A stretch of DNA of 37,167 nucleotides. Source: a virus. A program made the position numbers and the translations under genes. Shown here piece after piece: positions 1 to 37,167 of the stretch (the stretch's first letter is position 1; each line of letters begins with the position of its first letter). Under the pieces are notes generated by a model that was not told where the DNA came from, did not search any database, and worked only from the letters and a program-made list of their open reading frames with translations. The stretch is from the IMG/VR virus record IMGVR_UViG_3300038701_003633, positions 1-37,167 of that record; one strand, given 5' to 3'.

Positions 1-49
1 GGAAGGAAGCACGCGCCGCGGGGGGCCGGAAGGACCCAAAAAGACCCCC
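1..49. other. Left window end, GC-rich candidate cohesive-end region
   Basis: Non-coding. Holds a G+C-rich run at about 10-30 directly downstream of the stop of the minus-strand gene that ends at 50. If the two window ends are joined, this stretch plus 37084-37167 forms a gap of about 133 bp just upstream of terS, where lambda-type phages carry cos. That this is the packaging cut is inference; no overhang can be seen from the sequence alone. Confidence 0.35.
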
Positions 50-1439: not shown

Positions 1440-2159
1440 TCAAATTCGAAAATGCCGCGCCAGATCCCATGCCCCCTGCAACAACAGCACACGCCGCGCG
1501 CCTTTCACGTAATCCCTTTTGTCCAATGGGAATTCCCGCGACAGGCTGAAGTCATCAATGGGCCGGTCCAGGATAACAACCCAGTCGACAATTCTCTGCA
1601 CGGCGGGGGCACAAAACGATTCTCTCGCGATGGAATAGGCCTTGGCGGCATCCGCGCCATGGATTAGCGCCTGCATCATGTCACCGGCCCCGCCGCCCTG
1701 CACCCGGGGCCGCTCCAGATCAACCGAGCCACAGCCGATCAGACGGGCCATGTGCAGATCATGAAACAGCGACAGGGCCGACAATTGCCTAGGCGATATC
1801 CATCCCGGATTGCGGCCCCGCCCCGCCGCCATCTCACCCAGCTGCGCGGTCGGCGCCAGGGCGCGCAACACGCGGCCATCGCGCACCATTCCCGTGGCCA
1901 GCGCCGTGCAGGCCTGGACAAAGTCGATACCGCTGGTCCGGGCATAATCATCGGCAATGGACCGCAGCGCGGACAGCCTTGCCTTGGCCGCCTCCCGTTC
2001 GGCGATCTGCTCCGGCGTGGGCTCGGACAGCCGCGCGATCCGGCGCGGCGGCACGGCATCATCGGCATAGCTGGCGGCGAGACGCGGCCCGTCAACTGGC
2101 GTCTCGGTGCGGGCGTCCAGCGCGGCCCGCGCTCTGGCCGAAGCCTTAAGCTGCGTCAT
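1440..2159 (-). CDS. Conserved phage protein of unknown function downstream of the replication initiator
   Basis: The 239-residue product overlaps the end of the replication initiator gene by 14 bases, so the two are co-translated. Residues about 50-110 are Ala/Arg-rich helices. The C-terminal half contains an all-helical region with DLERPRVQGGGAGDMM and ends in a helix LLLQGAWDLARHFRI. That C-terminal pattern recalls the DUF6456-type domain of some alphaproteobacterial regulators, but the resemblance is weak. Given its place behind an O-like initiator it could be a helicase loader or replication partner (lambda gpP position), though no AAA or loader motif is visible. Treat as unknown. Confidence 0.7.
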   Translation of the reverse strand: MTQLKASARARAALDARTETPVDGPRLAASYADDAVPPRRIARLSEPTPEQIAEREAAKARLSALRSIADDYARTSGIDFVQACTALATGMVRDGRVLRALAPTAQLGEMAAGRGRNPGWISPRQLSALSLFHDLHMARLIGCGSVDLERPRVQGGGAGDMMQALIHGADAAKAYSIARESFCAPAVQRIVDWVVILDRPIDDFSLSREFPLDKRDYVKGARRVLLLQGAWDLARHFRI

Positions 2160-3147
2160 TCAATCGCTCCTCGATTTCGGGTTTCAATTCCACGCTCCAC
2201 GGGTCGGCCTCCGGGCGGCTGATCCGCCTCTTGCCGATGGCCCTTTCCACCCCGTCCGGCGTCCAGCACCGCACGGTCAGGCCCAGATGCTCCATCGCCC
2301 CGGTCAGATACCGGCGCACCGCATCGCCGCCGTCGAACGTGGTCAGCGACAGCGTTCCGGTCGCCTCATCCCGGGTCACGGTGAAGCGCCCGATCAGGCC
2401 ACGCAGTGTGGCGGGTTTCTGATATCCGTTCAGCGCGGCGATCAGAACGGCCCGGTCGGCCGGCGGCAGGGCGTCCAGCTCCGGCCGGATCTCCGACAAG
2501 GTGACAGCTGGCGGTGGCGGTGGCGGCGGCGCAGGCGGAGCGGCCCGTTTCCGGCGCTTGCCGGTGGAGCGCGATGGCTTCGGCAAGGCTCCGTCCCGGT
2601 CAGCCTCTTTTGCCCCGTCTGGCGAACCGGCCGCCCGCCCGTTTCCATCGGAAGCGGGCGAGCCGGTTCGATCGCCTGCCTCTCCTGATGGATCGCTGTG
2701 GGGGGTAAGGGGGGATTCGTTAGAAGACTCGTTCTTGTTGTGACCGGAGTCGTCACAATCGATGTGATCACTGTCGTCACAACGCGATGTGACCGTGCGG
2801 TCACAATGAGCAGATGCAGCATTTTCGCTTTCAGATACGTCGCCATCGCTTTCCGGTGGCCGATCGACGTCCAGTTTCACCCGATAGGATGACGACGCCG
2901 CCGCGTGTTTTCCGGCGTGTTTTTCTACCCATCCAAGCTTCACCAGCCGCGCGATCGAGCGATTCACCGTTTCGCGCGCCGCGCCAGCCCGTTCGGCCAG
3001 CGTGTCCTGCTTCACCCGCGCCCAGCCTGAATCATTGGTAAAAGTGCCGAGCGCGCAAAGCACGCGTAGATCCATCGGCTTTAATGCGCCACTGGCCGCG
3101 TCGGCCAATGCCCCGGCCGGAATGACGGAAAGTCGCGGCCCGCTCAT
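2146..3147 (-). CDS. Phage replication initiation protein, winged-helix N-terminus (lambda O-like)
   Basis: This 333-residue protein has a winged helix-turn-helix at residues about 22-90 (FTNDSGWARVKQDTLAERAG, then ETVNRSIARLVKLGWVE), the arrangement of lambda O-type and other phage initiators. Residues 105-150 are hydrophilic with repeated Cys-Asp/His pairs (CDDSDHIDCDDSGH) and are encoded by the iteron-like repeats at 2738-2806. A Pro-rich linker of about ten prolines follows near residue 205. A helical C-terminal domain (about 215-333, DALPPADRAVLIAALNGY) would contact the helicase loader or DNA. The start has a purine-rich AGGAAAGGA upstream. The promoter region (3148-3215) is shared divergently with the toxin gene. 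Initiator function is inferred from the N-terminal domain and the embedded repeats. Confidence 0.7.
   Translation of the reverse strand: MSGPRLSVIPAGALADAASGALKPMDLRVLCALGTFTNDSGWARVKQDTLAERAGAARETVNRSIARLVKLGWVEKHAGKHAAASSSYRVKLDVDRPPESDGDVSESENAASAHCDRTVTSRCDDSDHIDCDDSGHNKNESSNESPLTPHSDPSGEAGDRTGSPASDGNGRAAGSPDGAKEADRDGALPKPSRSTGKRRKRAAPPAPPPPPPPAVTLSEIRPELDALPPADRAVLIAALNGYQKPATLRGLIGRFTVTRDEATGTLSLTTFDGGDAVRRYLTGAMEHLGLTVRCWTPDGVERAIGKRRISRPEADPWSVELKPEIEERLNDAA
2714..2806. repeat. Candidate replication origin: three iteron-like dyads plus GANTC cluster inside the initiator gene
   Basis: Three imperfect inverted repeats of the form TGTGAC-N6/7-GTCACA lie at 2739-2757, 2763-2781 and 2788-2805, spaced 24-25 bp. 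The second has TGTGAT as its left arm. Flanking them on the left are GANTC motifs at 2714-2718 and 2726-2730, with a third inside the first dyad (2747-2751). Placement of dyadic iterons in the middle of the initiator gene is the lambda ori arrangement. The flank 2713-2740 is somewhat less G+C-rich than its surroundings. Confidence 0.55.
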
Positions 3148-3215
3148 GACGCCATCCTTTCCTGTGGAAGAGCAGCGTCCGGCGGGGTTGCGGCGCGGCG
3201 GAAACGGGTAAATTG

Positions 3216-3229
3216 ATCGGCATGCCGAT
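3216..3229. promoter_or_regulatory. Perfect 14-bp palindrome on the toxin start codon
   Basis: ATCGGCATGCCGAT is a perfect palindrome whose centre is the ATG at 3222-3224. It lies in the divergent region between the initiator gene and the PemK/MazF-like gene. It could be an operator for both or form a start-occluding hairpin. The function is inferred. Confidence 0.45.
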
Positions 3230-3635
3230 TCTCTATCCCCTTCCGCCCGGCACGATTGTGCTCTGCGATTACAGCCGCGGCGGATTTCAACCGCCGGAAA
3301 TGGTCAAGCGCCGTCCCGCCCTGATCATCTCGCCGCGCCTGCCGCATCGCGACGGCCTGTGCAGCGTCGTTCCGCTGTCCACCACACCCCCGCCGAAAGC
3401 CGTGGAATATGTTGTGGAGATCAATCTGGACGAGGCCCCGCCAGAGCCGTTTCAGGACACGCAGCTCTGGGCAAAATGCGATATGGTGGCGACGGTCAGC
3501 TTTGCCCGCCTGGAAATGTTTCGCGGCCCGCGCCTGCCCGGCGGCCAGCGGAAATACATCAAACCGAAACTGCCGCCCGACGTGTTTCTGACCGTGCAAC
3601 AGGGCGTCCTCGCCGGTCTGGGATTGCCGCGTTAG
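3222..3635 (+). CDS. PemK/MazF-family toxin-like protein (orphan)
   Basis: This product of about 137 residues resembles PemK/MazF-type mRNA interferases: the beta-barrel start PPGTIVLCDYS, then KRRPALIISPRL and CSVVPLSTTP, followed by late strands and a C-terminal helix. Enzymes of this family cut single-stranded mRNA at short motifs. I chose ATG at 3222 (MPILYP); a TTG at 3213 would add three residues. It is the only sizeable plus-strand gene within the otherwise leftward block and has its own terminator. No antitoxin gene (AbrB or RHH type, normally just upstream) is visible; the upstream neighbour is the divergent initiator. It could be a stabilisation or anti-phage gene, or a family member used for regulation. 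Lower coupling to neighbours suggests independent acquisition. Confidence 0.75.
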   Translation: MPILYPLPPGTIVLCDYSRGGFQPPEMVKRRPALIISPRLPHRDGLCSVVPLSTTPPPKAVEYVVEINLDEAPPEPFQDTQLWAKCDMVATVSFARLEMFRGPRLPGGQRKYIKPKLPPDVFLTVQQGVLAGLGLPR

Positions 3636-3772: not shown

Positions 3773-4966
3773 TCACGCCGCCCTCCCCGCACCGCGATTC
3801 TGCAGGCGAAAACGCGGAATCCCGGCCTCGCTGTGAATGGGGCCCAGCACCCGGTCGATCGCCGCCGCCTTATGGCTCGCACAATAGGACCGGCCCTCGA
3901 CGGTCGGTGCGCAACAGAAGTGGAAATCCGCCTCGCCGGGCTGACCGACCGGCCAGCGGCATTGCCTCGGTTCCAGATCCAGCACCGGGTCGGACAGGGA
4001 GGGCACAGCCCGGCCCTCCGTCTTTTTCAGATACGCCGCGGTCAGCGCCTCCCCCAACTGAACATCCGGATCACTATCGGCCGGCACGGCGCGGCGCGCC
4101 GCCGCGCCATTGAACTCGCTCACCTTGCGCGTGCGGGGCACGTACCAGCCGTGACGGATCGCCTCCAGACGGCAGGCATCCGCCGACCGGCCGGGCAGCA
4201 AACTCCCCAGCTGGCGCATGGTCGGCCCGCGCGGACAGGCTGCCTTCAGTACGGCCAGCTCCTCCTCGCTCCAACAGTTGACGGGGGTAATCAAAGCCTG
4301 CCCCGTCAGCGCATCCCCGGTCAGGCCCGAGACCAGATCCGGATCGCGGGGCGGTCCGTCGGCCAGACGCTGGTCGTGATAGGGACAGGCCTTTTTCAAC
4401 CGGCTGACAATGGCGGACACGCCCAGTGCCCGCCATCCAGAGCACAGCAGGCGTTTCAGGCTGGCGCGGGCATTGGACCGGCTCACCGACCAGCCAAGCG
4501 CGATGTGAATATCCAGCACGTCGCGGTCATTGACCTCTGACAGGGCCAGCGCCACCGACCAGCGCGCCTCGGACATGGCGCGGCCCGTTGCGCCGGCAAC
4601 GCTCCGGCCCGGCAGGGTCAGGATATCGTCGCGCGACAGCACACAGGTCTCTGCCGCACAGGCGGCGGCGCACAGGCGTTGCGTATTGGAAAACAGCGCC
4701 GGATCGGAGGAGGAGTCAGACGCCGCAGATTTCCCGCTATCTGCGGCGCAGCGCACGCCACGGACCGCCTCACTGGAATCCGGCGCGCGTGCCGGCGTTG
4801 ACGCCGCACCGCGCTTCTCCGCCAGGCCCAGCTTCTGCGCCCTCACCCGGCAGCCCACCATATCGCGGCCCGGCAGGCCGTCCGCAATCCAGCGATAGGT
4901 CCGCCCCGCCGCGCGGCCCTCGCGCAGCACAGCATCTTCTTGTGCTGTCCATCGCTTCCGGGTCAT
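3773..4966 (-). CDS. GcrA-like regulator with two Myb-like HTHs and a DnaA-IV-like domain
   Basis: The 397-residue product starts at the ATG that overlaps the upstream stop by ATGA (MTRKRW); a start 33 bases upstream is possible. Domains in order: Myb/SANT-like HTH at residues 3-50 (RWTAQEDAVL ... WIADGLPGRD); a Ser/Ala-rich linker; a region at about 110-185 that resembles DnaA domain IV (ARWSVALALSEVNDRDVLDI); a second Myb-like HTH at 231-276 (CWSEEELAVLK ... LGSLLPGRSADA); and at 334-370 the Cys/His motif of GcrA C-termini (QCRWPVGQPGEADFHFC, then YCASH). Cellular GcrA binds sigma70 and activates promoters carrying CcrM-methylated GANTC sites. The extra DNA-binding domains make this much longer than usual GcrA (about 170-180 residues). 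A role in timing phage transcription or replication with the host cell cycle is inference. Confidence 0.75.
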   Translation of the reverse strand: MTRKRWTAQEDAVLREGRAAGRTYRWIADGLPGRDMVGCRVRAQKLGLAEKRGAASTPARAPDSSEAVRGVRCAADSGKSAASDSSSDPALFSNTQRLCAAACAAETCVLSRDDILTLPGRSVAGATGRAMSEARWSVALALSEVNDRDVLDIHIALGWSVSRSNARASLKRLLCSGWRALGVSAIVSRLKKACPYHDQRLADGPPRDPDLVSGLTGDALTGQALITPVNCWSEEELAVLKAACPRGPTMRQLGSLLPGRSADACRLEAIRHGWYVPRTRKVSEFNGAAARRAVPADSDPDVQLGEALTAAYLKKTEGRAVPSLSDPVLDLEPRQCRWPVGQPGEADFHFCCAPTVEGRSYCASHKAAAIDRVLGPIHSEAGIPRFRLQNRGAGRAA

Positions 4967-5679
4967 GCCGCCACCTTCATTGTCTTCGCCGTGCGGCACC
5001 GGCCCGATTCCGTCCCGGTAATCTGTGCCGTCCCACTCCCCCGTCCCAAACCACCCGATAGCGTATCCTTGTGGGTGGTTTGGGAGGGGGTGTGGGCAGG
5101 CTCTGGCGGCCCTGATAATTCACCCGGTGTCGCCACCGACCAGCCAAGGCGGAACGCCTTGCCAAGCGCCGCATCGCGGGTCCGGCCCGGCAGGCGGCTG
5201 GCGATAGCGGCGTAGCTTTCGCCGCGCGCCAGCCCGGCGCGTAACGTGTCCAGCTCGGCACGGGTCCAGGAATTCTCCAGCCGGGCCTGACGGGGCGTCG
5301 AGGGACGCACCGGCACGGGCGCCAGTCGAGTCGCGTCGCCGGGCGCTGCCGCCTGGATCGCCGCTACGGCCAGATCCCATTCGGCATCGTCGGGATAGCC
5401 CATATCCAGGCACCGCCCCATCATCTTGCGAGCCGCCACCACCGAGGGATAAAAGCCCAGCAGCGCCGCAATATCTGGCGCATCGCGGTCATTGATCTCG
5501 GCCAGGGACAGGCAGATCGCCCACCGGGCGCGCATCATGTAATGCCCCAGCCTGCCGGCCAAAACGCGGCCGCGCGCGGTCCGCACCATCGCCTCATCCA
5601 GATCAAAATGTGCCGCCACCGCCGCAAAGGCAGCATCGGCCTGACGTGGCGTGAACCAGATATGATCTGTCGCAGGCAT
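4963..5679 (-). CDS. DNA-binding protein: DnaA-domain-IV-like HTH plus Myb-like HTH
   Basis: In this 238-residue protein, residues about 20-92 follow the DnaA domain IV pattern (VAAHFDLDEAMV, an Arg-rich helix, ARWAICLSLAEINDRDAPDI, then LLGFYPSVVAARK), but the protein has no AAA+ ATPase. Residues 138-182 are a Myb/SANT-like HTH (SWTRAELDTLRAGLARGES ... RLPGRTRDAA) like those in the following GcrA-like gene, so the two genes share both domain types and probably arose by duplication and fusion. Residues about 195-220 are encoded by a palindromic repeat inserted near the 3' end. A strong Shine-Dalgarno (GGGAGG) precedes the start, and the stop overlaps the next ATG (ATGA). DnaA-box binding to help phage replication or transcription is inference. 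Confidence 0.7.
   Translation of the reverse strand: MPATDHIWFTPRQADAAFAAVAAHFDLDEAMVRTARGRVLAGRLGHYMMRARWAICLSLAEINDRDAPDIAALLGFYPSVVAARKMMGRCLDMGYPDDAEWDLAVAAIQAAAPGDATRLAPVPVRPSTPRQARLENSWTRAELDTLRAGLARGESYAAIASRLPGRTRDAALGKAFRLGWSVATPGELSGPPEPAHTPSQTTHKDTLSGGLGRGSGTAQITGTESGRCRTAKTMKVAA
5021..5096 (-). repeat. Palindromic interspersed element, copy 1 (inverted, diverged)
   Basis: On the minus strand this reads like copies 2 and 3: a CCCACxCCCCCTCCCAA arm, an ACCACCC/GGGTGGT inner arm, a complementary GGGAC-GGGGGAGTGGG arm and the common trailer GACGGCACAGAT. It lies inside the coding region of the DnaA-IV/Myb-like protein and is translated (PAHTPSQTTHKDTLSGG) without breaking the frame. 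Confidence 0.75.
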
Positions 5680-5864
5680 CAGGAACGCCCTCCCGTATCG
5701 AAGCCGCCGGTGAAATCGTCATCGTGGTCCAGCGGCTCGGGAAACTCCCGTCCCGCCCGAAACGGCGCGCGGTCAACGGGCCGCGCCCGGCGCGGATCAA
5801 AGCCGGGCAAATCGCCTTGCGTGAACTCGTCGCGCGGCACGGTGAACGTGTCATTCATGGCCAT
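5679..5864 (-). CDS. Small acidic hypothetical protein
   Basis: The start MAMNDTF is preceded by AAGGAG eight bases upstream, a clear Shine-Dalgarno, so I prefer it to longer in-frame starts that run into the repeat element. The product has 61 residues, is rich in Asp, Arg and Pro, and ends DDDFTGGFDTGG; no domain is recognised. Its stop shares one base with the start of the DnaA-IV/Myb-like gene (TGATG). Its 5' end overlaps the C-terminus of the preceding gene by 14 bases. Confidence 0.6.
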   Translation of the reverse strand: MAMNDTFTVPRDEFTQGDLPGFDPRRARPVDRAPFRAGREFPEPLDHDDDFTGGFDTGGRS

Positions 5865-6318
5865 TTGTTTCTCCTTCAGAGTCATCCCGGCCTTCCGGCC
5901 GGGCAGAGCGGTTCCGGCCCACTCCCCCTCCCAAGCCACCCACAAGCCCATGATGGCCGGGTGGTTGGGAGGGGGCGTGGGACGGCACAGATTTCGTTGT
6001 CGAGGAGCGCTTCAGCTCCTCCTGCTTTAGCCACACGACCCGCGCCAGCGCCCCGCAGGCCGAACGCGCGGCCTCCGGTGCTGTCGCGAGATCGTGAAAA
6101 GAAAACTTGCAATCGGGGTCGGCCCCGATCAGCGCATTGACCGGATCGATCGCCTCGCGCGCCGCCTCCAGGGCGACGCCGCCGAGCCCGCGCCGCTCGG
6201 ACACCAGCCAGATGCCCTCGATGCGGGCGGCATCGCCCTCGATAAACCGGACATCGGCCAGCAGAACGCAGTGGCCATAGACAAAGGACAGCGCGAATAT
6301 CTCGGCGGGGGCGGTCAT
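5851..6318 (-). CDS. Hypothetical protein extended by a palindromic repeat at its C-terminus
   Basis: This 155-residue protein has about 108 residues of ordinary protein (IFALSFVYGHCVLLADVRF at the start, a helical middle with ALEAAREAIDPVNALIG, then ARVVWLKQEELKRSSTT). It then runs through palindromic repeat copy 2 (VPSHAPSQPPGHHGLVGGLG) to a polar tail. The compositional break at about residue 109 coincides with the repeat border, so the ancestral protein probably ended near there. The start overlaps the upstream stop by ATGA. Function unknown. Confidence 0.65.
   Translation of the reverse strand: MTAPAEIFALSFVYGHCVLLADVRFIEGDAARIEGIWLVSERRGLGGVALEAAREAIDPVNALIGADPDCKFSFHDLATAPEAARSACGALARVVWLKQEELKRSSTTKSVPSHAPSQPPGHHGLVGGLGGGVGRNRSARPEGRDDSEGETNGHE
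5909..5995 (+). repeat. Palindromic interspersed element, copy 2
   Basis: This 87-bp copy differs from copy 3 at two positions only. Outer arms CCCAC/GTGGG (5918-5922 with 5977-5981) enclose CTCCC/GGGAG-rich and CCACCC/GGGTGG inner arms, giving a hairpin of about 24 paired bases with a short apex. The upstream neighbour is another hairpin, CCCGGCC-TTCC-GGCCGGG (5886-5903). The copy is translated as the tail of the gene at 5851-6318. Confidence 0.9.
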
Positions 6319-6575
6319 AGATTCCCCCCGAACAGATCTTTTCGCCGGACCTCCGGCGCGCGGGTCTCCGGATCTGGCAGTTTCAGATCCTTGCCCGCCC
6401 GGGCATTGAAGGCAGCCTCGCCCTGGGCGCGATGCGCCGCGCAGACGTGAATTTCGTCACACACCTTGCCGTGCAGATAGACATTGTAGCCAAGCGTGGG
6501 CCGCTCGCCGCAGCCCGCGACGTGGCACCAGCGGCGCTCCGTTCCCGGCGCAGGAGTGGCAAGGCGGCTATTCAT
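6315..6575 (-). CDS. Small hypothetical protein with Cys/His motif
   Basis: The start MNSRLATP is chosen because its ATG overlaps the stop of the membrane protein gene upstream (ATGA). The 86-residue product contains WCHVAGCGERPT, then VCDEIHVCAAH, so four Cys and two His could form a zinc site, followed by a charged tail. The stop overlaps the next ATG (ATGA). The motif resembles small phage zinc-finger proteins of unknown role. Confidence 0.65.
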   Translation of the reverse strand: MNSRLATPAPGTERRWCHVAGCGERPTLGYNVYLHGKVCDEIHVCAAHRAQGEAAFNARAGKDLKLPDPETRAPEVRRKDLFGGNL

Positions 6576-6844: not shown

Positions 6845-6931
6845 CGGTTCCGGCCCACTCCCCCTCCCAAGCCACCCACAAGCCTATGATGGCCGGGTGG
6901 TTGGGAGGGGGCGTGGGACGGAACAGATTTC
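6845..6931 (+). repeat. Palindromic interspersed element, copy 3
   Basis: This 87-bp copy differs from copy 2 at two positions (T for C near the apex, A for C in the trailer). It lies between genes, just upstream of the start of the membrane protein gene, so its hairpin would be in the untranslated part of the leftward mRNA. Confidence 0.9.
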
Positions 6932-7544: not shown

Positions 7545-8036
7545 TCAACTCTCCCCTTTCAGGTGTGAAAACTTGTCCAGCAGCCATTGCTCGGCGCTGT
7601 TCAGGGCGCGCACCGCCTCGCGGATCTCGGCGAGGAGGGCGGGCGCTTCGGTGTGGTCAATGCGGCCATCGGCCAGGGCGGTGGCGCCGGCCGCAATCAT
7701 CTCGGCGGCCTCGCGCATGGCGGTGTGGATCTCGCCCGTCCCCGGCAGGGTCTCGGGCAGCGGCACCAGCTGGTATCCGGCGGAGCGCGCCAGCTGCGCC
7801 GTGACCAGCGGAAAGGCGGCGTCCATCTCGGCGTCCACGATCACATCGATCGGCGCGAAACTGTCATGGCCGGGGCGTTGATAATTGCGCAGCGTCTCGG
7901 CGCAGCCGCGCGTCTCCGGCGCCAGCGCTTCCGGCCCGCCGACCGAACGCAGCAGGCGGCCGGTCGCGGACTTCAGACTGGAATAGACGTGGGCGGGCTG
8001 CATCCGCCGCGGGGGGCTCTGCGCTACACCGGCCAT
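7545..8036 (-). CDS. Putative CII-like phage regulatory protein
   Basis: The start at 8036 (MAGVAQ) has GGGAGG eight bases upstream; an upstream ATG at 8069 is possible. The product has about 163 residues. Its N-terminal part (SLKSATGRLLRSVGGPEALA, then ETLRNYQRPGHDSF) fits the helix-turn-helix start of phage CII-like/CP76-type regulators, followed by PIDVIVDAEMDA and a C-terminal helical region (ALADGRIDHTEAPALLAEI). It is the gene after cro in the leftward operon, the place where such regulators are common. The family call is by eye and moderate. Confidence 0.5.
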   Translation of the reverse strand: MAGVAQSPPRRMQPAHVYSSLKSATGRLLRSVGGPEALAPETRGCAETLRNYQRPGHDSFAPIDVIVDAEMDAAFPLVTAQLARSAGYQLVPLPETLPGTGEIHTAMREAAEMIAAGATALADGRIDHTEAPALLAEIREAVRALNSAEQWLLDKFSHLKGES

Positions 8037-8098
8037 CTTTGGGGCCTCCCGCGCTTCGCCAAATGACATGGCGCAGCGTGCGGGGCACGCTGATGGTT

Positions 8099-8624: not shown

Positions 8625-9329
8625 ATGTGCATGGCCGCCTCGATTCCGTCCCGCCGCGCAGGCACCCTGCGCCAATCGCTTGAAAAGCTCGGCATCCGGC
8701 CGAAGCAGGCGGCGGCATTAGCCGGCGTACCCTATTCGACGATTATGAATTTCCTGAATGGCAACTCGCAATCCATGCGCGGCGAGACCGAGGCGAAACT
8801 GGCGAGGGCCCTCGGACGATCCGTGTCCGAACTATTTGAGGACGAGCCTGCCATCGGCTCGCCACAATCCATGGCTGAAATGCCCGAGACGAAAATCGTG
8901 GGGACGGTTGAGGCAGGGGCGTGGAGAGAAGCGGTGTCTCTGGACGAGGATCTGGGTCTTATCAAATTCATCCCCCACCCGGCCTTCCGCGCCGACGTTC
9001 AGTTCGCCATGCGGATCTCCGGACCCAGCTGTAATCGTGTGGTCCAGGATGGCGGCCTAGCCATCGTCGTGCCCTACGACCAGATCCCCGGCGGCGTGGA
9101 CGCCCTGGCCATGCGCACAGACCCGCCCCTGGTCGTGTTCGAGCGGCAGCGAGGCAGCGCTTATGAATACACCATCAAGGCCCTGCACCGGAACGGCACC
9201 GGCTTCGAGCTCCACCCCGTTTCCGACCACAAGGACCATCAGGCCATCATCCCGCTCAACGAAAAGGGCGACACGGACGAGGTCCGCATCGCCTTTGTTG
9301 TGGTCCAGGTGATCAATTCGGTCTTCTAG
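8625..9329 (+). CDS. CI-like repressor with LexA/S24 peptidase domain
   Basis: The 234-residue product has an N-terminal HTH at about residues 24-50 (RPKQAAALAGVPYSTIMNFL) and a C-terminal S24 (LexA/CI) domain. The autocleavage site is probably Ala97-Gly98 (EAGAW). The catalytic Ser is probably Ser135 in ISGPSCNRVVQDGG, which replaces the usual GDSM by GPSC, and the Lys is Lys185 in YTIKALHRNG. Both catalytic residues are kept, so RecA-stimulated self-cleavage on DNA damage is expected. It would hold the prophage silent by binding the TTTGGTTTT operators on both sides (8547-8588 and 10438-10479). An alternative ATG lies two codons downstream. Its stop overlaps the convergent membrane protein gene by four bases. 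Confidence 0.85.
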   Translation: MCMAASIPSRRAGTLRQSLEKLGIRPKQAAALAGVPYSTIMNFLNGNSQSMRGETEAKLARALGRSVSELFEDEPAIGSPQSMAEMPETKIVGTVEAGAWREAVSLDEDLGLIKFIPHPAFRADVQFAMRISGPSCNRVVQDGGLAIVVPYDQIPGGVDALAMRTDPPLVVFERQRGSAYEYTIKALHRNGTGFELHPVSDHKDHQAIIPLNEKGDTDEVRIAFVVVQVINSVF

Positions 9330-9756: not shown

Positions 9757-10350
9757 ATGAAAGGCTGTCTTTGGGCATTCGCAATTGTGTTCGTTATTGT
9801 GGCTATCGCCTTGATCTCCGCCGACTCCGGCAACTCGCCCTCGCGAAACTCCTCCGCCGCTCCTCGCCCGGTCTCACCGGCCGTCGCGGCACGGCGTGAT
9901 GCTGAGGCAGGCTTGCGCTGGACCTCCCGTCAAAGCACCAGCCGGATCGACGACAGTCCAAGCGTCTATCTCCAATTACGCGCTGTAGAGCTCGCCACAA
10001 ACGAATATGGCCGACGCGTCCAGCCTGTGTTGCATATCAGGTGCTATGAAAACACAACAACGCTTTATATCGATGTGCCGGACACGTTTCTTGACACCGA
10101 ATCCGTCCGTGTGACCTATCGTCTCGACGACCAGCCGGCGCGTCAGGCCGATTGGCGGGTTTCAACAGATTACGGCTCGATGGGGCTCTGGCGCGGCAAT
10201 CAGTCTATTCCGCTCATTCGGCAACTGGCAGGCGCAGACCTGCTAACCGTTCGCTTCACGCCTTACGGCAATGTGCCGTTCCAGACGACATTCATGGTCG
10301 AAGGGCTCGATGAAGAGCTGCCGCCCCTCAGGGAGGCCTGCAACTGGTAA
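9757..10350 (+). CDS. VasI/TagO-like envelope protein (T6SS-associated family), lysogenic cargo
   Basis: This 197-residue protein has a hydrophobic N-terminal anchor or signal (residues 4-22) and a soluble domain from about 50 on. SRIDDSPSVYLQL, PVLHIRCYENTTTLYI, VRVTYRLDDQPA, WRVSTD, TVRFTPYGNVPF and the closing LREACNW follow the pattern I know from the VasI/TagO family of type VI secretion-associated proteins, including two Cys likely to form a disulphide in the periplasm. Its G+C is lower than the surroundings (27 of 60 in 10021-10080). It has its own upstream region and a strong terminator, so it is an independent unit, typical of a moron expressed in the lysogen. No other T6SS gene is present. 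A role in envelope modification is inference. Confidence 0.6.
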   Translation: MKGCLWAFAIVFVIVAIALISADSGNSPSRNSSAAPRPVSPAVAARRDAEAGLRWTSRQSTSRIDDSPSVYLQLRAVELATNEYGRRVQPVLHIRCYENTTTLYIDVPDTFLDTESVRVTYRLDDQPARQADWRVSTDYGSMGLWRGNQSIPLIRQLAGADLLTVRFTPYGNVPFQTTFMVEGLDEELPPLREACNW

Positions 10351-10512: not shown

Positions 10513-10926
10513 ATGACCGCCGAAATTGTCCACCTTGCAGATTACCGGCCCTGCCAGATCCACGCCATCCCGCTTTCCCCCGAACCGACACCACCGGCGG
10601 CGGCAGCGCGGCCTTCCCCTCCGCCGGAAACCGTCAACGCGGTCGCGGGCGGCGACGTTGATGGCTGGGGGCTGCCAGAGCATGCGGTCTTTGACCGCGC
10701 TACCGGCGCCGAGCCCCGCCTGCTGACGGTCGGCGACCGGGTGGTCTTTGATCGCGGCCGCAGCCAGATCACCGAGGGCGTGATTATCCATCTCAATCCG
10801 GAGCGCGCCATTGTCTCGGTCCGCATGACGGACGGCCGCGATCGCGGCCATGTCGTGGCGCGCGCCTGTCACGAGGTCCACCTGCTCGATACCGGCACCG
10901 CCACCCGCGTGAGGACGGGCTCATGA
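10513..10926 (+). CDS. Hypothetical protein, first gene of the rightward operon
   Basis: The 137-residue product has a Pro/Ala-rich region (residues 22-45) and a C-terminal beta-rich part with LLTVGDRVVFDRGRSQITEGVIIHL and ERAIVSVRM, reminiscent of a small SH3-like or KOW-like barrel; that is a structural guess. It overlaps the ParB-like gene by ATGA. Being first behind the repressor-controlled promoter, it is expressed earliest on the rightward side. Confidence 0.7.
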   Translation: MTAEIVHLADYRPCQIHAIPLSPEPTPPAAAARPSPPPETVNAVAGGDVDGWGLPEHAVFDRATGAEPRLLTVGDRVVFDRGRSQITEGVIIHLNPERAIVSVRMTDGRDRGHVVARACHEVHLLDTGTATRVRTGS

Positions 10927-12707
10927 ATATCTCACAGACCGAAACCCTGCTGCTGGCCGAGATCGGCCGGCGCGAGATCGAGGGCCTGCCCCTCGCCGTC
11001 ACGGAGATTGCCGAGGCGCTCGGCATCGGCCAGCCCTCCGCGTCGAAATTCGCCAAGCGCATGGCGGAAAAGGACGGCTGGATTACGCGCGCCCCACTCG
11101 CCCTCACCCCGGCAGGCAAGGCGGTGATGGCCACCGCCCCCGCCGTGCTGATCCCGCACGACCGCATCGCGCCCGGCGCCAATCCGCGCCACATGGATCT
11201 GCGCGAAGGCGGAGAGGACATCGCCGCCCTGCGCGATCTGGCCGAGAGCATCGCCGATAAGGGTCAGCTGCAGCCGATACTGGTGCGGCCTGTCGCCAAT
11301 GGCGGTTATGACATTGTCGGCGGCGAGCGCCGCTGGCGCGCCACGGCGCTGCTGATCACCGAAGGCCGCCTGCCCGAAGAGCACCCGGTGGCGGCCACGG
11401 TCCGGCCGCTCAGCGATGAAGACGCCATGGTAGCTGCGCTCGCCGAGAATATGGCGCGCCGCGACATGAATCCGATGGACGAGGCCGAGGGCCTGTTCAG
11501 CGTCTATGGACCCCGTGTGGATGCCGCGCCGGAGGGTGAACGCCGCAAGGCCCAGGCCGAGACTGTCGCACTTCTGGCGAAAGCCACCGGCCAGAGCGAT
11601 CGCTATATCCAGGCGCGGATCCGGCTGGCGCGGGATCTGCCGCAATCGGTCCGGACCATGGTGCGGCTCGGCGAGCTCGGCGTGACCTTCGCCAACGAGC
11701 TGGTCAGCTGGCCGCAAGTCGAACAGGAACAGGCGGCGGGCCGGATCGCGGCCCGGGCCCCCGGCTGGACCAGTGTGGAGGAGATCCGGGCGCAGCGTAA
11801 GGGCGCAGACGCGCCGCCTCCGACACCGGTTCCAGCCATGCCCCCGGAAGCGATCCGCGCGGCAGAGGCCGTGGCGCTGGCCGAAGCCTCCGGCAAGACC
11901 CGCGACCCCGCCATCCCCGCCATGGCCACAGAAATCCCGGAGTCAGAGCCGAACAGGCACGGCGTCTATGAGCCGACCGTCACCTACACGGTGGTCGAGA
12001 GCAAATCGCCGCGGGTCTCCGCCGCCATTCGCATGGCACGGTGTGAGGACGGTCTGATCCGCTTCAGCTTCGACATCCAGAACGCGACGCGCGGGCATTC
12101 CGGCCCGATCACCATCGGGCGCGACCTCGCCTTTCCCGGAATCCGCAACGCGCACTTCGCGGCGCTGCGCGCCTTGCGCGACAGATTCGCGAAGATCGAG
12201 GGCGGCTCCGATGCCGAAGCCAGAGGAGCCGAGCTGGCAATGGCCATGATCGGCCGCTTTGCCGCCGCCTGGGAGATTGATCTGGACGGCGGGGAAGACC
12301 TGGACGCCGGAGAATTCAGCGCACGCGGTGCGGTGATTGATGAAAACCCGGAGCCCGCTTCCGGACCAACCACCGACAAGGACACTGCCCGGGTGGTTGG
12401 GCCCGAGTGCGATTTTGTGGCGGGGGACGGCACAGACTGCCGTCCCGATTCCGGGACGGCCGCACCTTCCCCTTCAGGAGACACGTGGCCGAGCGACCCC
12501 GAGGCCGCCACCGTCACCGACCGGCAGGTCCTTCACGATATTGGCCGCGCCCTGTCGATGGGGGCGATCCGCATCGTCATCGAGGCCGACCCTCTGGCCC
12601 GCTCCACCGCGGCCGAGCTGATGGCGCGCATCGCCGCCACGCAAGACGACGGCGCGGTGCAGATCAAGACCGGCGGCCAGCGCGCCATCGTGAGCGGGAG
12701 GCGGTGA
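10923..12707 (+). CDS. ParB-like nuclease-domain protein with N-terminal winged helix
   Basis: This 594-residue protein begins with a MarR-like winged helix (residues about 5-60, LLAEIGRREIEG ... QPSASKFAKRMAEKDGW). It is followed by a ParB N-terminal (ParB/Srx) domain at about 75-185: a PNPR-like GANPRH, LAESIADKGQLQPILVRP, the diagnostic VGGERRWRA and ENMARRDMNPMDEAEG. A ParB-type HTH region follows (about 200-270). The C-terminal 300 residues hold linkers and a helical domain, and are crossed at about 481-505 by a diverged palindromic repeat. Unlike plasmid ParB there is no ParA partner in the window, so replication, regulation or a phage ParB-type nuclease role is more likely than partition. 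Start and stop overlap both neighbours. Confidence 0.8.
   Translation: MNISQTETLLLAEIGRREIEGLPLAVTEIAEALGIGQPSASKFAKRMAEKDGWITRAPLALTPAGKAVMATAPAVLIPHDRIAPGANPRHMDLREGGEDIAALRDLAESIADKGQLQPILVRPVANGGYDIVGGERRWRATALLITEGRLPEEHPVAATVRPLSDEDAMVAALAENMARRDMNPMDEAEGLFSVYGPRVDAAPEGERRKAQAETVALLAKATGQSDRYIQARIRLARDLPQSVRTMVRLGELGVTFANELVSWPQVEQEQAAGRIAARAPGWTSVEEIRAQRKGADAPPPTPVPAMPPEAIRAAEAVALAEASGKTRDPAIPAMATEIPESEPNRHGVYEPTVTYTVVESKSPRVSAAIRMARCEDGLIRFSFDIQNATRGHSGPITIGRDLAFPGIRNAHFAALRALRDRFAKIEGGSDAEARGAELAMAMIGRFAAAWEIDLDGGEDLDAGEFSARGAVIDENPEPASGPTTDKDTARVVGPECDFVAGDGTDCRPDSGTAAPSPSGDTWPSDPEAATVTDRQVLHDIGRALSMGAIRIVIEADPLARSTAAELMARIAATQDDGAVQIKTGGQRAIVSGRR
12365..12437 (+). repeat. Palindromic interspersed element, copy 4 (diverged remnant)
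   Basis: An inner hairpin CCAACCACC ... GGGTGGTTGG (12366-12374 with 12391-12400) and the trailer GGGGGACGGCACAGA match the other copies, while the outer arms are eroded. Translated here it gives PTTDKDTA, close to QTTHKDTL encoded by copy 1. It lies inside the ParB-like gene. Confidence 0.5.
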
Positions 12708-15393: not shown

Positions 15394-15692
15394 CGGATAA
15401 CGGATTCTCTTTGTCGCCGACCATGCTGGCCGCCCAACGTCTTAAAGATTGGCCGGGCGCTGTCGGGAAATTCATTGTCATGGTCCAGAACCGCCGATCA
15501 CGGCTTGAGGATCGATTCCTCAGCCGGGAACTGGCCGGACCGCCCCGCCTGGTCGGAAACTTTCTGGTCTGGCCCGGCGTCTGGCGGGACGGGAAAGCCA
15601 ACCCTTACGCCACACAGATGGGCAATCTGATCCCGGCCGACCGGGATGAACAGTTATGGCCGCCATTGACCGCCGCCAGACCACAGCCATGA
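15390..15692 (+). CDS. Hypothetical protein upstream of the recombinase
   Basis: The 100-residue product contains KDWPGAVGKFIVMVQNRRSR and PRLVGNFLVWPGVWRDGKA, probably a compact alpha/beta fold, with no Cys motif or membrane segment. It overlaps the recombinase start by ATGA, so it is translated with it. Large serine integrases can use a recombination directionality factor encoded nearby; this gene or the two before it are candidates by position only. Confidence 0.6.
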   Translation: MTDNGFSLSPTMLAAQRLKDWPGAVGKFIVMVQNRRSRLEDRFLSRELAGPPRLVGNFLVWPGVWRDGKANPYATQMGNLIPADRDEQLWPPLTAARPQP

Positions 15693-17341
15693 CCACCGCC
15701 ATCTATGCCCGCTTTTCCTCGAGCCTGCAGACCGATGTCTCGATCGAGGACCAGATCCGCTCCGGGCAGGCTCTGGCGGCGCGCCACGCTCTGGGCCCGT
15801 GCGAGATCTACACCGACGCCGCCCTGTCCGGTGCGTCCATGGCCAACCGGCCGGGCCTGCTGGCCCTGCTGGCAGCGGTCGAGGCCGGGCGCATCACCAC
15901 CATCATCACCGAAGCGCTCGACCGTCTCTCCCGCGATCAGGCCGACACCGCCCTGATCTATCGCGCCTGCGCCACACGTGGCGCGCGAATCCTGACCGTC
16001 AGCGATGGCGAGATTGGCGATGACGCTGCCGGCATGATGCAGGTCGGGCTGCGCGGCGTGATGAACGCCATGTTCCTGAAGGACCTCGCCGTGAAAACCC
16101 ATCGCGGCCTCGCCGGCGTGGTGGCGTCCGGCCGACATGCCGGGCCGCCGCCCTATGGCTACCGGCTGCGCTGTGGCGGTGCGCCGGGCGAGCTCGAGAT
16201 CGACCCGGTCACATCGGCGGTTGTTGCCCGGATCTGGCAGGATTATGCCGATGGCCTGTCGCCGAAGCAGATTGCCCACGCCCTGAACGCCGAAGGCGTG
16301 AACGGCCCCAGGGGCGGTCCGTGGCGCAACTCCACCATTTTCGGCCAGCCCAGGCGCGGCAATGGCATCTTGCAGAACCCGCTCTATCGCGGCACCCGCG
16401 TCTGGAACCGCAACCGCAAGGTCAAGGATCCGGCGACCGGCAAGGCGCGCATGGTGGCCCGGCCGGAATCGGAATGGATCAGTGTCCCTGCCCCGGAGCT
16501 CGCTTTTATCGGTGGCGCCCTGGCCGAGGCCGTCACAGCCCGGCTGGCGGGCACGGCGATCAATCGCCAGCCTCAGACCGCAAGGCGGCCCAAACGGCCC
16601 CTGTCGGGCCTGATGACGTGCGGGGCGTGCGGCGGGAGTATGGTGCTGGAAGGCTCGGGAGACTATCGCTATTACGCCTGCAGTGCCCGGCGCGAGACCG
16701 GCCTGTGTGCGGACCGCACGCGGATCCGCGCCGATCAGGCAGAGCAACGTGTGCTGGCCGCGCTGAAGGCCCGGCTGATGTCACCGGCGGCGGTGCGGCT
16801 GGCCGTCGAGACCTACCGGCAGGCACGGGCACGGCTGGCCCGGCAGGAAGGCCAGAGCCGGGCGGCCCTGGAACGCCGGATCACGGACGGCCGTGCGGCA
16901 ATATCGCGCCTGGTCACGGCGATCGAGACCGGGTCGGCCCCGGCCAGCGTGATGGCAAGGCTGCAGAAACTGGAAAGCGATGTGGGGGATTGGGAGGCCG
17001 AGCGCGACGCGCTGGCGCCGCCGGTCGTGACCGAGTTGCATCCGCAGGCCGGGCGGCGCTATGCGCAGCAGATCGAAGCCCTGCAGGACGCCGTGACGGA
17101 TCCGGCGGTGATGACACCGGCGGAACGCGCGCGCGCCATCGAGGCCATACAGAGCCTGATCGTCAGGATCACTGCGGCCACAAACGAAAAGAGCGGCGAA
17201 GTCGCCCTCACCGTGGAAGGAGACCTCGCCGCCCTGATACACAAAACGGAAGCCCCCGATCGAGGACTTCCGTTAACAGTGGGTGCGGGAGCCCGCGCCC
17301 TTCATAAACGGAAACGCGCCGACGTCTGCTTTGCAGCGTGA
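15689..17341 (+). CDS. Large serine recombinase (phage integrase)
   Basis: This 550-residue protein has, in order: a resolvase-like catalytic domain (1-150: IYARFSSS with catalytic Ser10, SIEDQ, then EALDRLSRDQADTALIY and the helix-E region); a recombinase domain (about 150-300: GPPPYGYRLR, PKQIAHALNAEGV); a zinc ribbon at about 308-345 (TCGACGGSM ... YYACSARRETGLC); and a C-terminal coiled-coil stretch (about 355-470) typical of large serine integrases. It would integrate the phage between attP and attB with no host factor. I prefer the start MTTAIYARFS because it overlaps the upstream stop (ATGA); a start 11 codons earlier exists. The last about 40 residues (GLPLTVGAGARALHKRKR) look unlike a folded domain. 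A hairpin AACGGAAG/CTTCCGTT near 17246-17275 lies within this tail. Confidence 0.9.
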   Translation: MTTAIYARFSSSLQTDVSIEDQIRSGQALAARHALGPCEIYTDAALSGASMANRPGLLALLAAVEAGRITTIITEALDRLSRDQADTALIYRACATRGARILTVSDGEIGDDAAGMMQVGLRGVMNAMFLKDLAVKTHRGLAGVVASGRHAGPPPYGYRLRCGGAPGELEIDPVTSAVVARIWQDYADGLSPKQIAHALNAEGVNGPRGGPWRNSTIFGQPRRGNGILQNPLYRGTRVWNRNRKVKDPATGKARMVARPESEWISVPAPELAFIGGALAEAVTARLAGTAINRQPQTARRPKRPLSGLMTCGACGGSMVLEGSGDYRYYACSARRETGLCADRTRIRADQAEQRVLAALKARLMSPAAVRLAVETYRQARARLARQEGQSRAALERRITDGRAAISRLVTAIETGSAPASVMARLQKLESDVGDWEAERDALAPPVVTELHPQAGRRYAQQIEALQDAVTDPAVMTPAERARAIEAIQSLIVRITAATNEKSGEVALTVEGDLAALIHKTEAPDRGLPLTVGAGARALHKRKRADVCFAA

Positions 17342-20377: not shown

Positions 20378-23300
20378 CTATGGATTTTCGAGTTCGCCGA
20401 TGCCACCAATTTTTAAAAGGCAGTTCCCGGCACTGGCTGTGTCGATATAACCGGTGGCGCCGCTGTCGGCAGACATCCAGACAGACACATAGAGATGCGT
20501 CAGCGGAAAGCTCCAGAGATTGGAGATGATGTTGTAAAAGCGCTGTGTCGTAGTCGCAGAATAGTCTTGAATGAACTGCCAGTTCGTCAACGGCCCGCCC
20601 GGCAAAGGCGTACCACCGCCCGTCCCGTCATTGGTGGCCTGAAAAACACCGGACGACGGCGCCGTTTCCACAACAGCCAAGGCGCCGGATGCCAATGTGA
20701 TGGCATTGGCTTCTGTGCCGCTGGCATCATTGGCGATAATCTTCCAGTTGATTGTGCATTCGGCATCCGCCGCATGACTGCCCGTGCTGCGAAGCCGCAG
20801 CGCGGTCCCGGCCAGATTGATCAGGTGATTTTCATCCACATTGGCAAAACTGACGCGCAACAACTCGGTGAACGTACCACCAAAACTGCTCGCAATTGGC
20901 GTGTCGGCGGCGGCGTCCATTTTCTGTGTCGGGTAGATGATCTTTTCATAGGCAAGCGGATCCGCACCATCAAATTCGCTATTGCCGACCTGCGACGCCG
21001 CGGCCAGCGCTCCGGTCCCCGAGACATTTGCAAGCGGAATGGTCGGAATGCGCGCAAGAGCAAGAGTCCCGCTGCCGATAATCGACGCCGGCAGGCTGGG
21101 AATGTCGGCTGTCTGAATCGCAGAATTGGCGACCCGTGTGCCGCCCCCTGTGCCGATGCCGCCAATCTCGCCACTGCCATTGATGTTCACCCCCAATCGC
21201 CCGGACGCCGTCTCTATAGCATCGACCAGCGCGTCCCGCGCCTCCCGGGCGGCCTGTATATTCGCCACCCAGTCGGTTGCCGTGATCGTGGTATTCCCGC
21301 TCAACACATTCCAGGCGACCGGACTGGTCAGCGTTCCCAGATAGGTCGACAGGGTCGACATCGCCGAGGTGTAGGCCGTCGCCGTCACCGAATATAGCGA
21401 GGCGCGGGTGGTCAGCGCACCCTGCTCGGCGAGCAATGCCTCGATCGCGGGCACGATCAGCGTTTTCTCTGCCGGGGCCAGCAAGCCGTCACTGGCCATC
21501 GCGGCGATTTCGGCCGCAGGAACACCGCCGACACTGGTCGGCGTCAACGTGCCGGTACACTGAATGGACGAATCCGCGATGGCGGCTGGCGCCACGCGGC
21601 CGAGGCTCGACAGGACATAGGTCACACGATACCAGCCATCCGGCAGGGCCATGACATAGCCCTCTCCGGTGTCACCCGTGAACAGGCGGCTATCCTGTTC
21701 CGGAGGATCAACCGGATCCCCACCATCGCCATTCAGGCGCGTGATGGTCACCAGAACATTGATAGCGCGTGACACGGGCGTCCAGGTCATCTTGATGACG
21801 GGAAGCGCCACCACACCCGAGCTGACACCGCCGGATGTTACCGAAACGTCCGAAAGCGCCAAAGCAGGCAGATTCGGAGAGGCACGGGAGATCGAATAGA
21901 TATCGGTCTCATCTGTCGTTTCGTCCCAGTCACCGACACTGTCCGGGTGGCGGCGCAGCGCCACGACCAGCCGCTTGTCCGGTGTGATGGCGGGGCGGCT
22001 GTCAACGCGCCATGGGGTATCGGGCAAGCGCAGACGGCTAATGAACTCATCGTCCAGTTCGACACGGTCGCCACGCTCGAGCTGGCAATACGGAAACAGC
22101 GGCAAGGAAAAGGCCAGACGCTCCTCGGCCCGGGCCGCCTCCATTCGCCGTTTCAGAATTCTCTGGGCCTGGGTACCGGACGTCACCGCAATCAGCGTGA
22201 TGTCGGCATTGAATTCCTGGCCTTTATCCTCGGCCAGATAGGTCGCGTTCTCGCGCACCAGATTGTCATTGATTTCATAGAGCAAAGCCGGGTCTGAAAA
22301 CCCGCCTGTGATTCGGTTGATCTTGTCGCTCGGCTCGAGATCCGGCTCATAGTTCAAATCTTCACGGGCCATGTCCTGCCAGCGGATCTTGAATGGCACG
22401 ACCGCCCGCTCCACGCCCGGCAGAAAGCGGGCGGCCCGGCCGCCGCCATCATCCAGATCGCCATCCATGGCATCGAGAACGGGCTGCAAGTTCTGCCCGT
22501 GATTGCGGCCTTTGCGGCCGCACAGGAAACTGCCGCCACAGCGGTATCTTTTTTCCGTATCGCCAGCGTTCAGTGCGACCAATTCGTCGCATTCATTGGC
22601 GGCCGCGATCAGGTCCGAATCCGGCAGGCGGCTGCGCGCCCAGCCCATACCGCCGATCAGCTTTCCATTCAGAAAATAGCCCGCCTTGTATTGCGCAGCG
22701 ATCAGCGCGTTATTGTCGGTCCACGGCCAGCTGGCAGGATCATCCGGGTCGGAGCTGCCGTCACGCGGATCATGCGCAGGCGACCACTGGCATTCAAAGC
22801 GGAGTTGAGCCTCGCCGGACGGGAAAGCCTTGGGATCCGCTTTCATGCGGACAATCGCATAGGTCCGGCCACGCAGCCGGAAATTCGTTGTGATCGAGTC
22901 GTGCCGGGAGACCAGGTCAAGATCTGCGGTCTGATCCGGGTCACCGAGATATATCCGCACCCAGAGACAGTCGCCGCCATCCTCGTCCTGGTAATGGGAT
23001 GTGCAAGCCCGATACCCGGACGTAAGATCGCCGGCAAATGTCAGCGCTTCACCCTCATCGCCATATACGGCGACAACACTTTCGGACCTGAAATCATTCA
23101 GCAGAATGACGCGATCGAGGTATTCATTGTTATCGCCATAATAGAGCGGCGGCGTGACCGCCGATCCGGGGGTCGCAAACTGGCCGAACAGTATTTCGAT
23201 CGGGTGATCGGTCTGGAATCGGAGTGAGGTCGGCAGTGCCGTATCAGGAACGCTGCTCTGGCCTGTGTCCGGGCGGCTGCCGAAAACCTTGTTGATGCCG

Positions 23301-23419
23301 ATCTGTACCGCCGTCATGGCCACGGCACGGGCAATGGCGCCCCATATGGTCTGGGCGGCAAGCGCGCCCTTGACCGCGGTGAAAATGGCCGCACCAGCCG
23401 CCACGATAAATTGAGGCAT
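20378..23419 (-). CDS. Central tail tip/host specificity protein (gpJ-like)
   Basis: This protein of 1013 residues is the largest in the window. The N-terminal hydrophobic stretch (FIVAAGAAIFTAVKGALAAQ) and the region to about 500 (LRFQTDHPIEILFGQFATPG; SDKINRITGGFSDP) follow phage tail-tip proteins of the lambda J / GTA gp15 type that close the tail tube. Residues about 540-650 look like fibronectin-type beta domains. The C-terminal third is Gly/Ala/Ser/Thr-rich with repeats (VANSAIQTADIPSLPASIIG), typical of a fibre stalk and receptor-binding end. Cys-containing motifs (YRCGGSFLCGRKG) are present near 305. It comes last in the tail module and directly precedes the lysis genes, as in lambda. 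It contacts the host surface. Confidence 0.8.
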   Translation of the reverse strand: MPQFIVAAGAAIFTAVKGALAAQTIWGAIARAVAMTAVQIGINKVFGSRPDTGQSSVPDTALPTSLRFQTDHPIEILFGQFATPGSAVTPPLYYGDNNEYLDRVILLNDFRSESVVAVYGDEGEALTFAGDLTSGYRACTSHYQDEDGGDCLWVRIYLGDPDQTADLDLVSRHDSITTNFRLRGRTYAIVRMKADPKAFPSGEAQLRFECQWSPAHDPRDGSSDPDDPASWPWTDNNALIAAQYKAGYFLNGKLIGGMGWARSRLPDSDLIAAANECDELVALNAGDTEKRYRCGGSFLCGRKGRNHGQNLQPVLDAMDGDLDDGGGRAARFLPGVERAVVPFKIRWQDMAREDLNYEPDLEPSDKINRITGGFSDPALLYEINDNLVRENATYLAEDKGQEFNADITLIAVTSGTQAQRILKRRMEAARAEERLAFSLPLFPYCQLERGDRVELDDEFISRLRLPDTPWRVDSRPAITPDKRLVVALRRHPDSVGDWDETTDETDIYSISRASPNLPALALSDVSVTSGGVSSGVVALPVIKMTWTPVSRAINVLVTITRLNGDGGDPVDPPEQDSRLFTGDTGEGYVMALPDGWYRVTYVLSSLGRVAPAAIADSSIQCTGTLTPTSVGGVPAAEIAAMASDGLLAPAEKTLIVPAIEALLAEQGALTTRASLYSVTATAYTSAMSTLSTYLGTLTSPVAWNVLSGNTTITATDWVANIQAAREARDALVDAIETASGRLGVNINGSGEIGGIGTGGGTRVANSAIQTADIPSLPASIIGSGTLALARIPTIPLANVSGTGALAAASQVGNSEFDGADPLAYEKIIYPTQKMDAAADTPIASSFGGTFTELLRVSFANVDENHLINLAGTALRLRSTGSHAADAECTINWKIIANDASGTEANAITLASGALAVVETAPSSGVFQATNDGTGGGTPLPGGPLTNWQFIQDYSATTTQRFYNIISNLWSFPLTHLYVSVWMSADSGATGYIDTASAGNCLLKIGGIGELENP

Positions 23420-24683: not shown

Positions 24684-24685
24684 GA

Positions 24686-25624: not shown

Positions 25625-25627
25625 GGT

Positions 25628-26359: not shown

Positions 26360-26365
26360 GGCCGA

Positions 26366-28564: not shown

Positions 28565-28583
28565 GGCGCGATCCTGTCAGATA

Positions 28584-29098: not shown

Positions 29099-29100
29099 GT

Positions 29101-29493: not shown

Positions 29494-29520
29494 GCCTTTA
29501 CTCCTTGCTGGCAGTTGTAA

Positions 29521-37083: not shown

Positions 37084-37167
37084 CTGCTATCCCGTTCTGG
37101 TTATAAAGATTCCGCACTCCGCATTTTGTCTGTCGCTAGCGCGATATCGGGCCTCCTTTCCCTATTC
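37084..37167. promoter_or_regulatory. Region upstream of terS with promoter-like box, GANTC site and palindromes
   Basis: Read leftward, TATAAC (37105 to 37100) is preceded by GAATC (GANTC, 37112 to 37108) and lacks a good -35. Two abutting 8-bp palindromes, CGCTAGCG (37134-37141) and CGATATCG (37142-37149), follow toward the window end. Together they may be the late promoter and part of cos; the function is inferred. Confidence 0.4.

Follow-up and report, generated by a model that had tools for sequence, protein, structure and literature searches.

A GcrA-family protein and its paralog in a phage early operon

The window analyzed here is the whole 37,167-base IMG/VR virus record IMGVR_UViG_3300038701_003633, which comes without an attached host genome. 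By its PHROG and Pfam matches, the window is a temperate tailed phage (Table 1). Synteny with a relative, IMGVR_UViG_3300022687_000016 (L026), puts the two ends of the record (positions 1 and 37167) side by side with a 133-base gap, which makes it probable that the record is a complete or near-complete genome in permuted form. Because of the GcrA protein and of terminase relatives in Roseobacter and Paracoccus phages, we infer an alphaproteobacterial host. Scanning the window against Rfam and for tRNA genes returned nothing.

Two genes, P0002 followed by P0001, sit in the leftward early operon. They are joined by an ATGA overlap, which suggests that their translation is coupled. P0001 encodes 397 aa from its ATG, and an alternative GTG start at 4999 would give 408 aa. 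P0001 matches the Pfam family GcrA (PF07750) with 55.7 bits (E 9.7e-15, cut-off 26.9) over residues 232-369, corresponding to its second HTH and C-terminus, and Myb (PF00249) with E 6.6e-5 over residues 3-45. Against the NCBIfam equivalog for cellular GcrA, NF050816, it scores 37.9 bits, under the cut-off of 280. P0002 matches PF07750 with 24.3 bits, just below the cut-off of 26.9, and Myb with 15.6 bits, in both cases through its HTH region only. The nearest solved structures by sequence alone are those of Caulobacter crescentus GcrA. P0001 and P0002 are paralogous, with 33% identity over 192 aa (E 6e-17) spanning the middle unit and second HTH, so the repeated pair of unit plus HTH is real.

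Table 1. Features of the window that bear on the P0002-P0001 locus and on the nature of the phage.
Feature	Position	Strand	Basis or comment
P0001, 397-aa GcrA-family protein: Myb1, DnaA-IV-like unit, Myb2, GcrA SID	3773..4966	-	Pfam, AlphaFold2 model, fold matches
GcrA sigma-interacting domain (SID) of P0001 (residues 327-373), CRWPVGQP..FHFC..YC..H	3848..3988	-	Fold match to 5yix
Myb2 of P0001 (residues 230-274), recognition helix SADACRLEAIRHG	4145..4279	-	VIA-align Z 6.7, rmsd 1.3 to 5yiv
DnaA-domain-IV-like unit of P0001 (residues 85-195)	4382..4714	-	VIA-align Z 7.2 to 1l8q, 6.9 to 3pvp, 6.4 to 1j1v
Myb1 of P0001 (residues 1-48), recognition helix DMVGCRVRAQKLG	4823..4966	-	VIA-align Z 7.0, rmsd 1.2 to GcrA DBD 5yiu
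P0002, 238-aa neighbor: DnaA-IV-like unit, Myb/GcrA-DBD-like HTH, repeat-encoded tail	4963..5679	-	Paralogy to P0001; GcrA DBD phmmer E 0.0023
Palindromic repeat copy C, 89 bases	5017..5105		P0002/P0001 junction; encodes most of the P0002 tail
DnaA-domain-IV-like unit of P0002	5329..5673	-	Modeled alone, Foldseek, VIA-align
Replication initiator-like gene	2146-3147	-	Next same-strand gene after P0001
CII-like gene	7545-8069	-	PHROG/Pfam
CI-like repressor	8625-9329	+	PHROG/Pfam
ParB-like partition protein	10923-12707	+	PHROG/Pfam
Large serine integrase	15656-17341	+	PHROG/Pfam
Terminase, portal, head, tape-measure and tail genes	20378-37083	-	PHROG/Pfam
Gap upstream of terminase small subunit, GANTC at 37108; candidate late-operon control region	37084..37167, continues 1-49	-	Shared 9-mer, weak

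P0001 retains the GcrA sigma-interacting domain within a larger assembly

For structure prediction, we used alignments of the window proteins and of proteins from retrieved loci only. The AlphaFold2 model of full-length P0001 has a mean pLDDT of 72.7, is low chiefly in the linkers and C-terminal tail, and contains four confident modules. Both Myb-like HTHs superpose on the GcrA DBD, as represented by 5yiu and by 5yiv, the latter being the DBD bound to methylated DNA. The SID matches chain B of 5yix, the sigma-bound SID, with a Foldseek probability of 1.00 and 40% identity (VIA-align Z 5.9, rmsd 1.5). The SID residues that are nearly invariant in the GcrA family, C-W-P-G-P-F-C-YC-H-A, are all present in P0001.

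Thus, the phage pair shares with C. crescentus GcrA (PF07750; 5yiu, 5yiv, 5yix, 7ye1) both the SID with all its family-invariant residues and the Myb/GcrA-type HTH fold. The overall layout differs. The canonical protein of about 173 aa has one N-terminal DBD, a linker and a SID (173 aa in C. crescentus; PMC7403470), whereas P0001 has four modules in 397 aa and a SID-less paralog, giving the pair three HTHs with altered recognition helices and two DnaA-IV-like units.

A unit resembling DnaA domain IV in both proteins

When the P0002 unit was modeled alone from a three-sequence alignment, it formed six helices (pLDDT 83.8, pTM 0.80). Its top three PDB matches in Foldseek are all DnaA domain IV (1j1v, probability 0.95; 3pvp, 0.94 and 0.90), with E-values of 0.25-0.62. 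In VIA-align, it matches 1l8q with Z 7.4 (rmsd 3.2, 101 residues aligned), 8btg with 6.2, and 3pvp and 1j1v with 6.1 each, and the first unrelated fold follows at 3.8. Of these, 1j1v and 3pvp are domain IV of E. coli and M. tuberculosis DnaA, respectively, 8btg is the bacterial origin-opening complex, and 1l8q is a DnaA initiator. In a viral structure library, the top entries for this unit are proteins named 'DnaA C-terminal'. DnaA domain IV is the top fold match in two independent models, that of the P0002 unit alone and that of full P0001 (Z 6.1-7.2 in the latter), with Z values of 6.1-7.4 overall.

Sequence profiles give a different picture. The Pfam profile for DnaA domain IV, PF08299 (Bac_DnaA_C), has no match anywhere in the window, and profile-profile alignment (hhalign) of both units with DnaA domain IV found nothing. 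Against a DnaA-IV HMM, the P0002 unit scores 6.5 bits, above each of 500 shuffles (best 6.0), and the P0001 unit scores no better than its shuffles. Because the Pfam, profile-profile and P0001 shuffle tests miss the unit, its assignment rests on structure. Since the Z values lie below 8 and the Foldseek E-values above 0.2, we read it as a predicted fold resemblance of moderate strength, short of proving common descent. The phage units share the six-helix order and fold of DnaA domain IV and of the phage 'DnaA C-terminal' proteins, and differ from DnaA domain IV in having no Pfam match and no GGRDHTTV motif, in a longer loop preceding helix 3, and in being embedded in a GcrA protein.

The original prediction, made from the DNA letters and their translations, had described a 397-residue protein carrying the GcrA C-terminal motif, two Myb-like HTHs and a DnaA-IV-like domain, next to a gene repeating the last two without the GcrA motif, and had proposed structure prediction as a check for GcrA or DnaA-IV similarity. 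Both similarities were found, and this list of parts was right, with the DnaA-IV-like domain standing as a fold resemblance.

GcrA recognition-helix residues are lost from P0001 and largely kept in P0002

We next consider what these modules might read. The base readers of DnaA lie in GGRDHTTV (H434, T435 and T436 in the E. coli 1j1v complex). By alignment, the motif GGRDH(T/S)TV is missing from both units, which have GFYPSVVAAR (P0002) and GWSVSRSNAR (P0001) at the equivalent helix start, and the window contains no perfect DnaA box. We therefore rejected DnaA-box reading, and the earlier proposal that the protein could read DnaA boxes and GANTC methylation together has support in part only.

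For the GcrA recognition helix, we used conservation as a stand-in for DNA contacts. Across 104 aligned GcrA-type DBDs from retrieved loci, R33 (83%), N34 (88%), G38 (88%), K39 (81%) and R42 (98%) are conserved. The consensus helix (T/S)RNAVIGKxHRLG is lost in both P0001 HTHs (Table 1), so P0001 would be unlikely to read host methyl-GANTC promoters by itself. The P0002 HTH keeps R33, G38, K39 and R42 (TRDAALGKAFRLG). The proposal of methylation reading is thus unsupported for the 397-aa protein itself and may hold in part for its neighbor. The recognition helix of P0001 Myb1 resembles one in the L026 counterpart P0012 (ASCRVQAQKLG), and the common pattern CRVxAQKLG in two phages suggests a selected DNA target.

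A fused counterpart occurs in a syntenic phage

GcrA homologs are common in phages: we confirmed 159 IMG/VR stretches encoding them, and they also occur among phage records in the phiCbK group and others. A layout similar to that of P0001/P0002 was found in one other sampled phage only, L026, which surfaced solely through a GcrA SID alignment and again through a three-row alignment containing L026 itself. Scans with the single proteins and with the paralog alignment found no direct relatives in IMG/VR or in a set of genomes from 84,980 species. A genome scan with the P0001/P0012 alignment returned four loci encoding short GcrA-like or SID-only proteins, and BLAST matches to phage and plasmid records were limited to the SID and HTH parts. 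Among the matches listed in 385 alphaproteobacterial genomes, none has this architecture, all being single HTHs or a SID with or without an adjoining part, in agreement with the original remark that the layout was not recognized from cellular GcrA. An AraC-like partial match (L171) was judged to be due to chance.

The L026 ortholog, P0012, is a single 552-aa protein colinear with P0002 and P0001 joined. Its N-terminal unit and HTH resemble P0002 (E 2e-8), and four more Myb repeats follow (five in total), the second Myb resembling P0001 Myb1 (34% over 124 aa, E 6e-11). The SID is 48% identical to that of P0001. From its alignment with P0002, the N-terminal unit would also be DnaA-IV-like. The two phages are syntenic, with 64% identity in the head protein, 66% in the portal, 45% in the terminase, 61% in the pre-terminase gene and about 30% in CI and CII. 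In both, the regulator occupies the same early-operon position, preceded by the CII-like gene and followed by the replication and terminase genes. P0012 thus shares with the window pair its genomic position, a P0002-like N-terminus, a Myb1-like second Myb and the SID, and differs in being one fused five-Myb protein with canonical DnaA-IV domains encoded separately, downstream. The latter lie in an ORF at about 5632-6516 (+) of L026, a few hundred bases after P0012, encoding a tandem DnaA-domain-IV protein (GGFSHASI, GGRDHSTV) that scores above the Bac_DnaA_C cut-off. In four more distant prophages with the pre-terminase gene, the DNA examined (short in two cases) holds no GcrA, Myb or DnaA-IV-like gene, and the regulator is therefore not essential to this type of late operon.

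To our knowledge, phage copies of GcrA have been described so far only as short look-alikes. Brevundimonas phage Bajun has a 235-aa GcrA homolog with two tandem HTHs ahead of the SID, and phiCbK-like phages were reported in 2012 to encode a GcrA with a SID (PMC3556154). These homologs are much shorter than the window pair, and no DnaA-IV-like unit was seen in them. Their phages have genomes above 200 kb, whereas the window is a temperate phage with CI/CII and an integrase. We conclude that the P0001/P0002 architecture, as modeled, is likely new within the phage GcrA family.

A palindromic repeat lies at the gene junction

The repeat at 5017-5105 is an inverted, diverged copy of 5909-5995 and 6845-6931. 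The three palindromic copies, of 87-89 bases and in both orientations, all lie in the early operon, with predicted hairpins of about -55 to -64 kcal/mol. No match to the repeat was found in plasmids, phage records or the syntenic relative. We rejected a role as intrinsic terminators, since no T-run follows the repeats on the coding strand; the element looks like a small mobile repeat. The P0001 frame is open upstream across the repeat at the junction, and 89 bases leave a remainder of 2 when divided by 3, which would put P0002 and P0001 in separate frames. Given these features and the single fused, repeat-free protein of the relative, insertion of the repeat likely split one gene into two coupled genes, with the element borders uncertain by a base or two.

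GANTC sites and the pre-terminase gap

GANTC is scarce in both phages, with 80 sites against about 166 expected in the window and 53 against about 168 in L026, which would fit phage DNA evolving in CcrM hosts. Intergenic DNA, 9.4% of the sequence, holds 7 of the 80 sites and is thus not enriched for them overall. The gaps before the terminase genes of the window and L026 share a 9-mer containing GANTC, CGGAATCTT. Among 20,000 random window pairs, only 13 had a 9-mer of this kind in common, in a comparison made post hoc over some 18 gaps. The distance of GANTC from the gene differs between the two terminase gaps. In view of this difference and of the post hoc nature of the test, we treat the shared 9-mer as a lead only.

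Within the same gap, GGGTCCTTCCGGCC at window positions 24-37 (-) is identical in the relative (L235/L236, record position 16698), lying between the pre-terminase gene and the terminase small subunit, and a similar motif occurs at L009:9321; GGGTCCTTCCGGCC is a candidate cos site.

A likely sigma70 cofactor, probably aimed at phage promoters

In alphaproteobacteria, the well-studied activator GcrA connects sigma70 with DNA methylation. In P0001 the SID is kept and the DNA-reading end is rebuilt, which is most simply explained by a phage cofactor of sigma70 that would act at other sequences; such a cofactor role is likely. On balance we lean toward a specific form of this model, in which P0001 and P0002 would together act as a GcrA-type sigma-70 cofactor whose modules bring RNA polymerase to phage-chosen promoters, likeliest those of the phage late operon. 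The C-terminal SID of P0001 would attach to the housekeeping sigma factor of the host at its region 2, and the three Myb/GcrA-type HTHs and two DnaA-IV-like units across both proteins would place RNA polymerase at the chosen promoters. Rather than DnaA boxes, the target would most likely be phage DNA, above all the late operon, whose first genes, those of the terminase, lie just downstream; the P0002 HTH could at most still sense GANTC-type sites. The computations gave the modules, their folds, the conserved SID and the conserved early-operon position; from these we infer that the proteins bind sigma and DNA, select promoters and act together.

Genes conserved in position between CII-like and replication or terminase genes are usually the phage's own regulators. 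GcrA binds sigma region 2 through its SID, reads methylated promoters through its DBD and stimulates the formation of open complexes (PMC7403470). Expression of an entire prophage operon of Brevundimonas subvibrioides, with genes for terminase, portal and prohead, requires GcrA (PMC7987155), and GcrA-type control of phage late genes therefore occurs. In view of that structural operon and of the position of the regulator just before the late genes here, the late genes of the phage are its likeliest target, and the architecture probably aims host RNA polymerase at the phage's own genes.

Control over host cell-cycle transcription, as originally predicted, may be possible; to judge by position and synteny, the late genes of the phage itself are at least as good a candidate target. 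A takeover factor acting mainly on host cell-cycle promoters and pushing the host to a replication-ready state has been proposed for GcrA of phiCbK-like phages (PMC3556154), and the conserved SID of P0001, the four recognition residues kept in the P0002 HTH and the scarcity of GANTC in both phages, as in CcrM hosts, are consistent with this. We nevertheless regard it as unlikely here: the loss of GcrA recognition residues affects both HTHs of the protein that bears the SID, and the module content differs between two related phages, unlike that of a protein tracking a fixed host target.

A replication factor is rather improbable. Its DnaA-IV-like and Myb units would bind the phage origin while the SID makes a transcription bubble or is a relic, in line with the DnaA-IV fold of the units, with a replication initiator-like gene as the next on the same strand and with the canonical tandem DnaA-IV protein beside the regulator in L026. 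However, a relic would not need the GcrA-invariant residues that P0001 keeps in full, neither an AAA+ nor a helicase-loading part is present, and both the DnaA-box readers and the box itself are absent. Very unlikely, in our estimate, is an anti-activator that occupies sigma2 and titrates host GcrA, its DNA-binding modules holding P0001 off GANTC promoters. Such a protein would keep its SID and lose the helices that read methyl-GANTC, as P0001 has done, but titration would not need extra DNA-binding modules, and the recognition helix found alike in two phages argues for a DNA target of its own.

Beyond the cofactor model, we consider a fuller version doubtful, in which phages would swap Myb and DnaA-IV-like modules before a fixed SID to make a modular sigma70 adaptor, and the SID-less partner may sense GANTC methylation so that late genes become active when the cell cycle or the methylation reaches a defined state. 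If true, the cofactor model would show phages re-aiming a host cell-cycle regulator by keeping its SID and rebuilding its DNA-reading end from Myb and DnaA-IV-like modules. The pair would then offer a natural test of whether activation requires more than tethering by the SID, and a DnaA-type DNA-binding fold would be placed in a transcription factor other than DnaA.

Other features of the phage genome

Between P0001 and the replication gene, on the opposite strand, lies a PemK/MazF-like toxin gene (3213-3635, +; PF02452, E 2.6e-11), and no antitoxin gene was recognized adjoining it. The large serine integrase and the ParB-like partition protein coexist in this one phage. Near the repressor, the gene at 9757-10350 (+) matches the VasI family (PF11319, E 1.4e-15), a type VI secretion accessory and odd cargo for a temperate phage.
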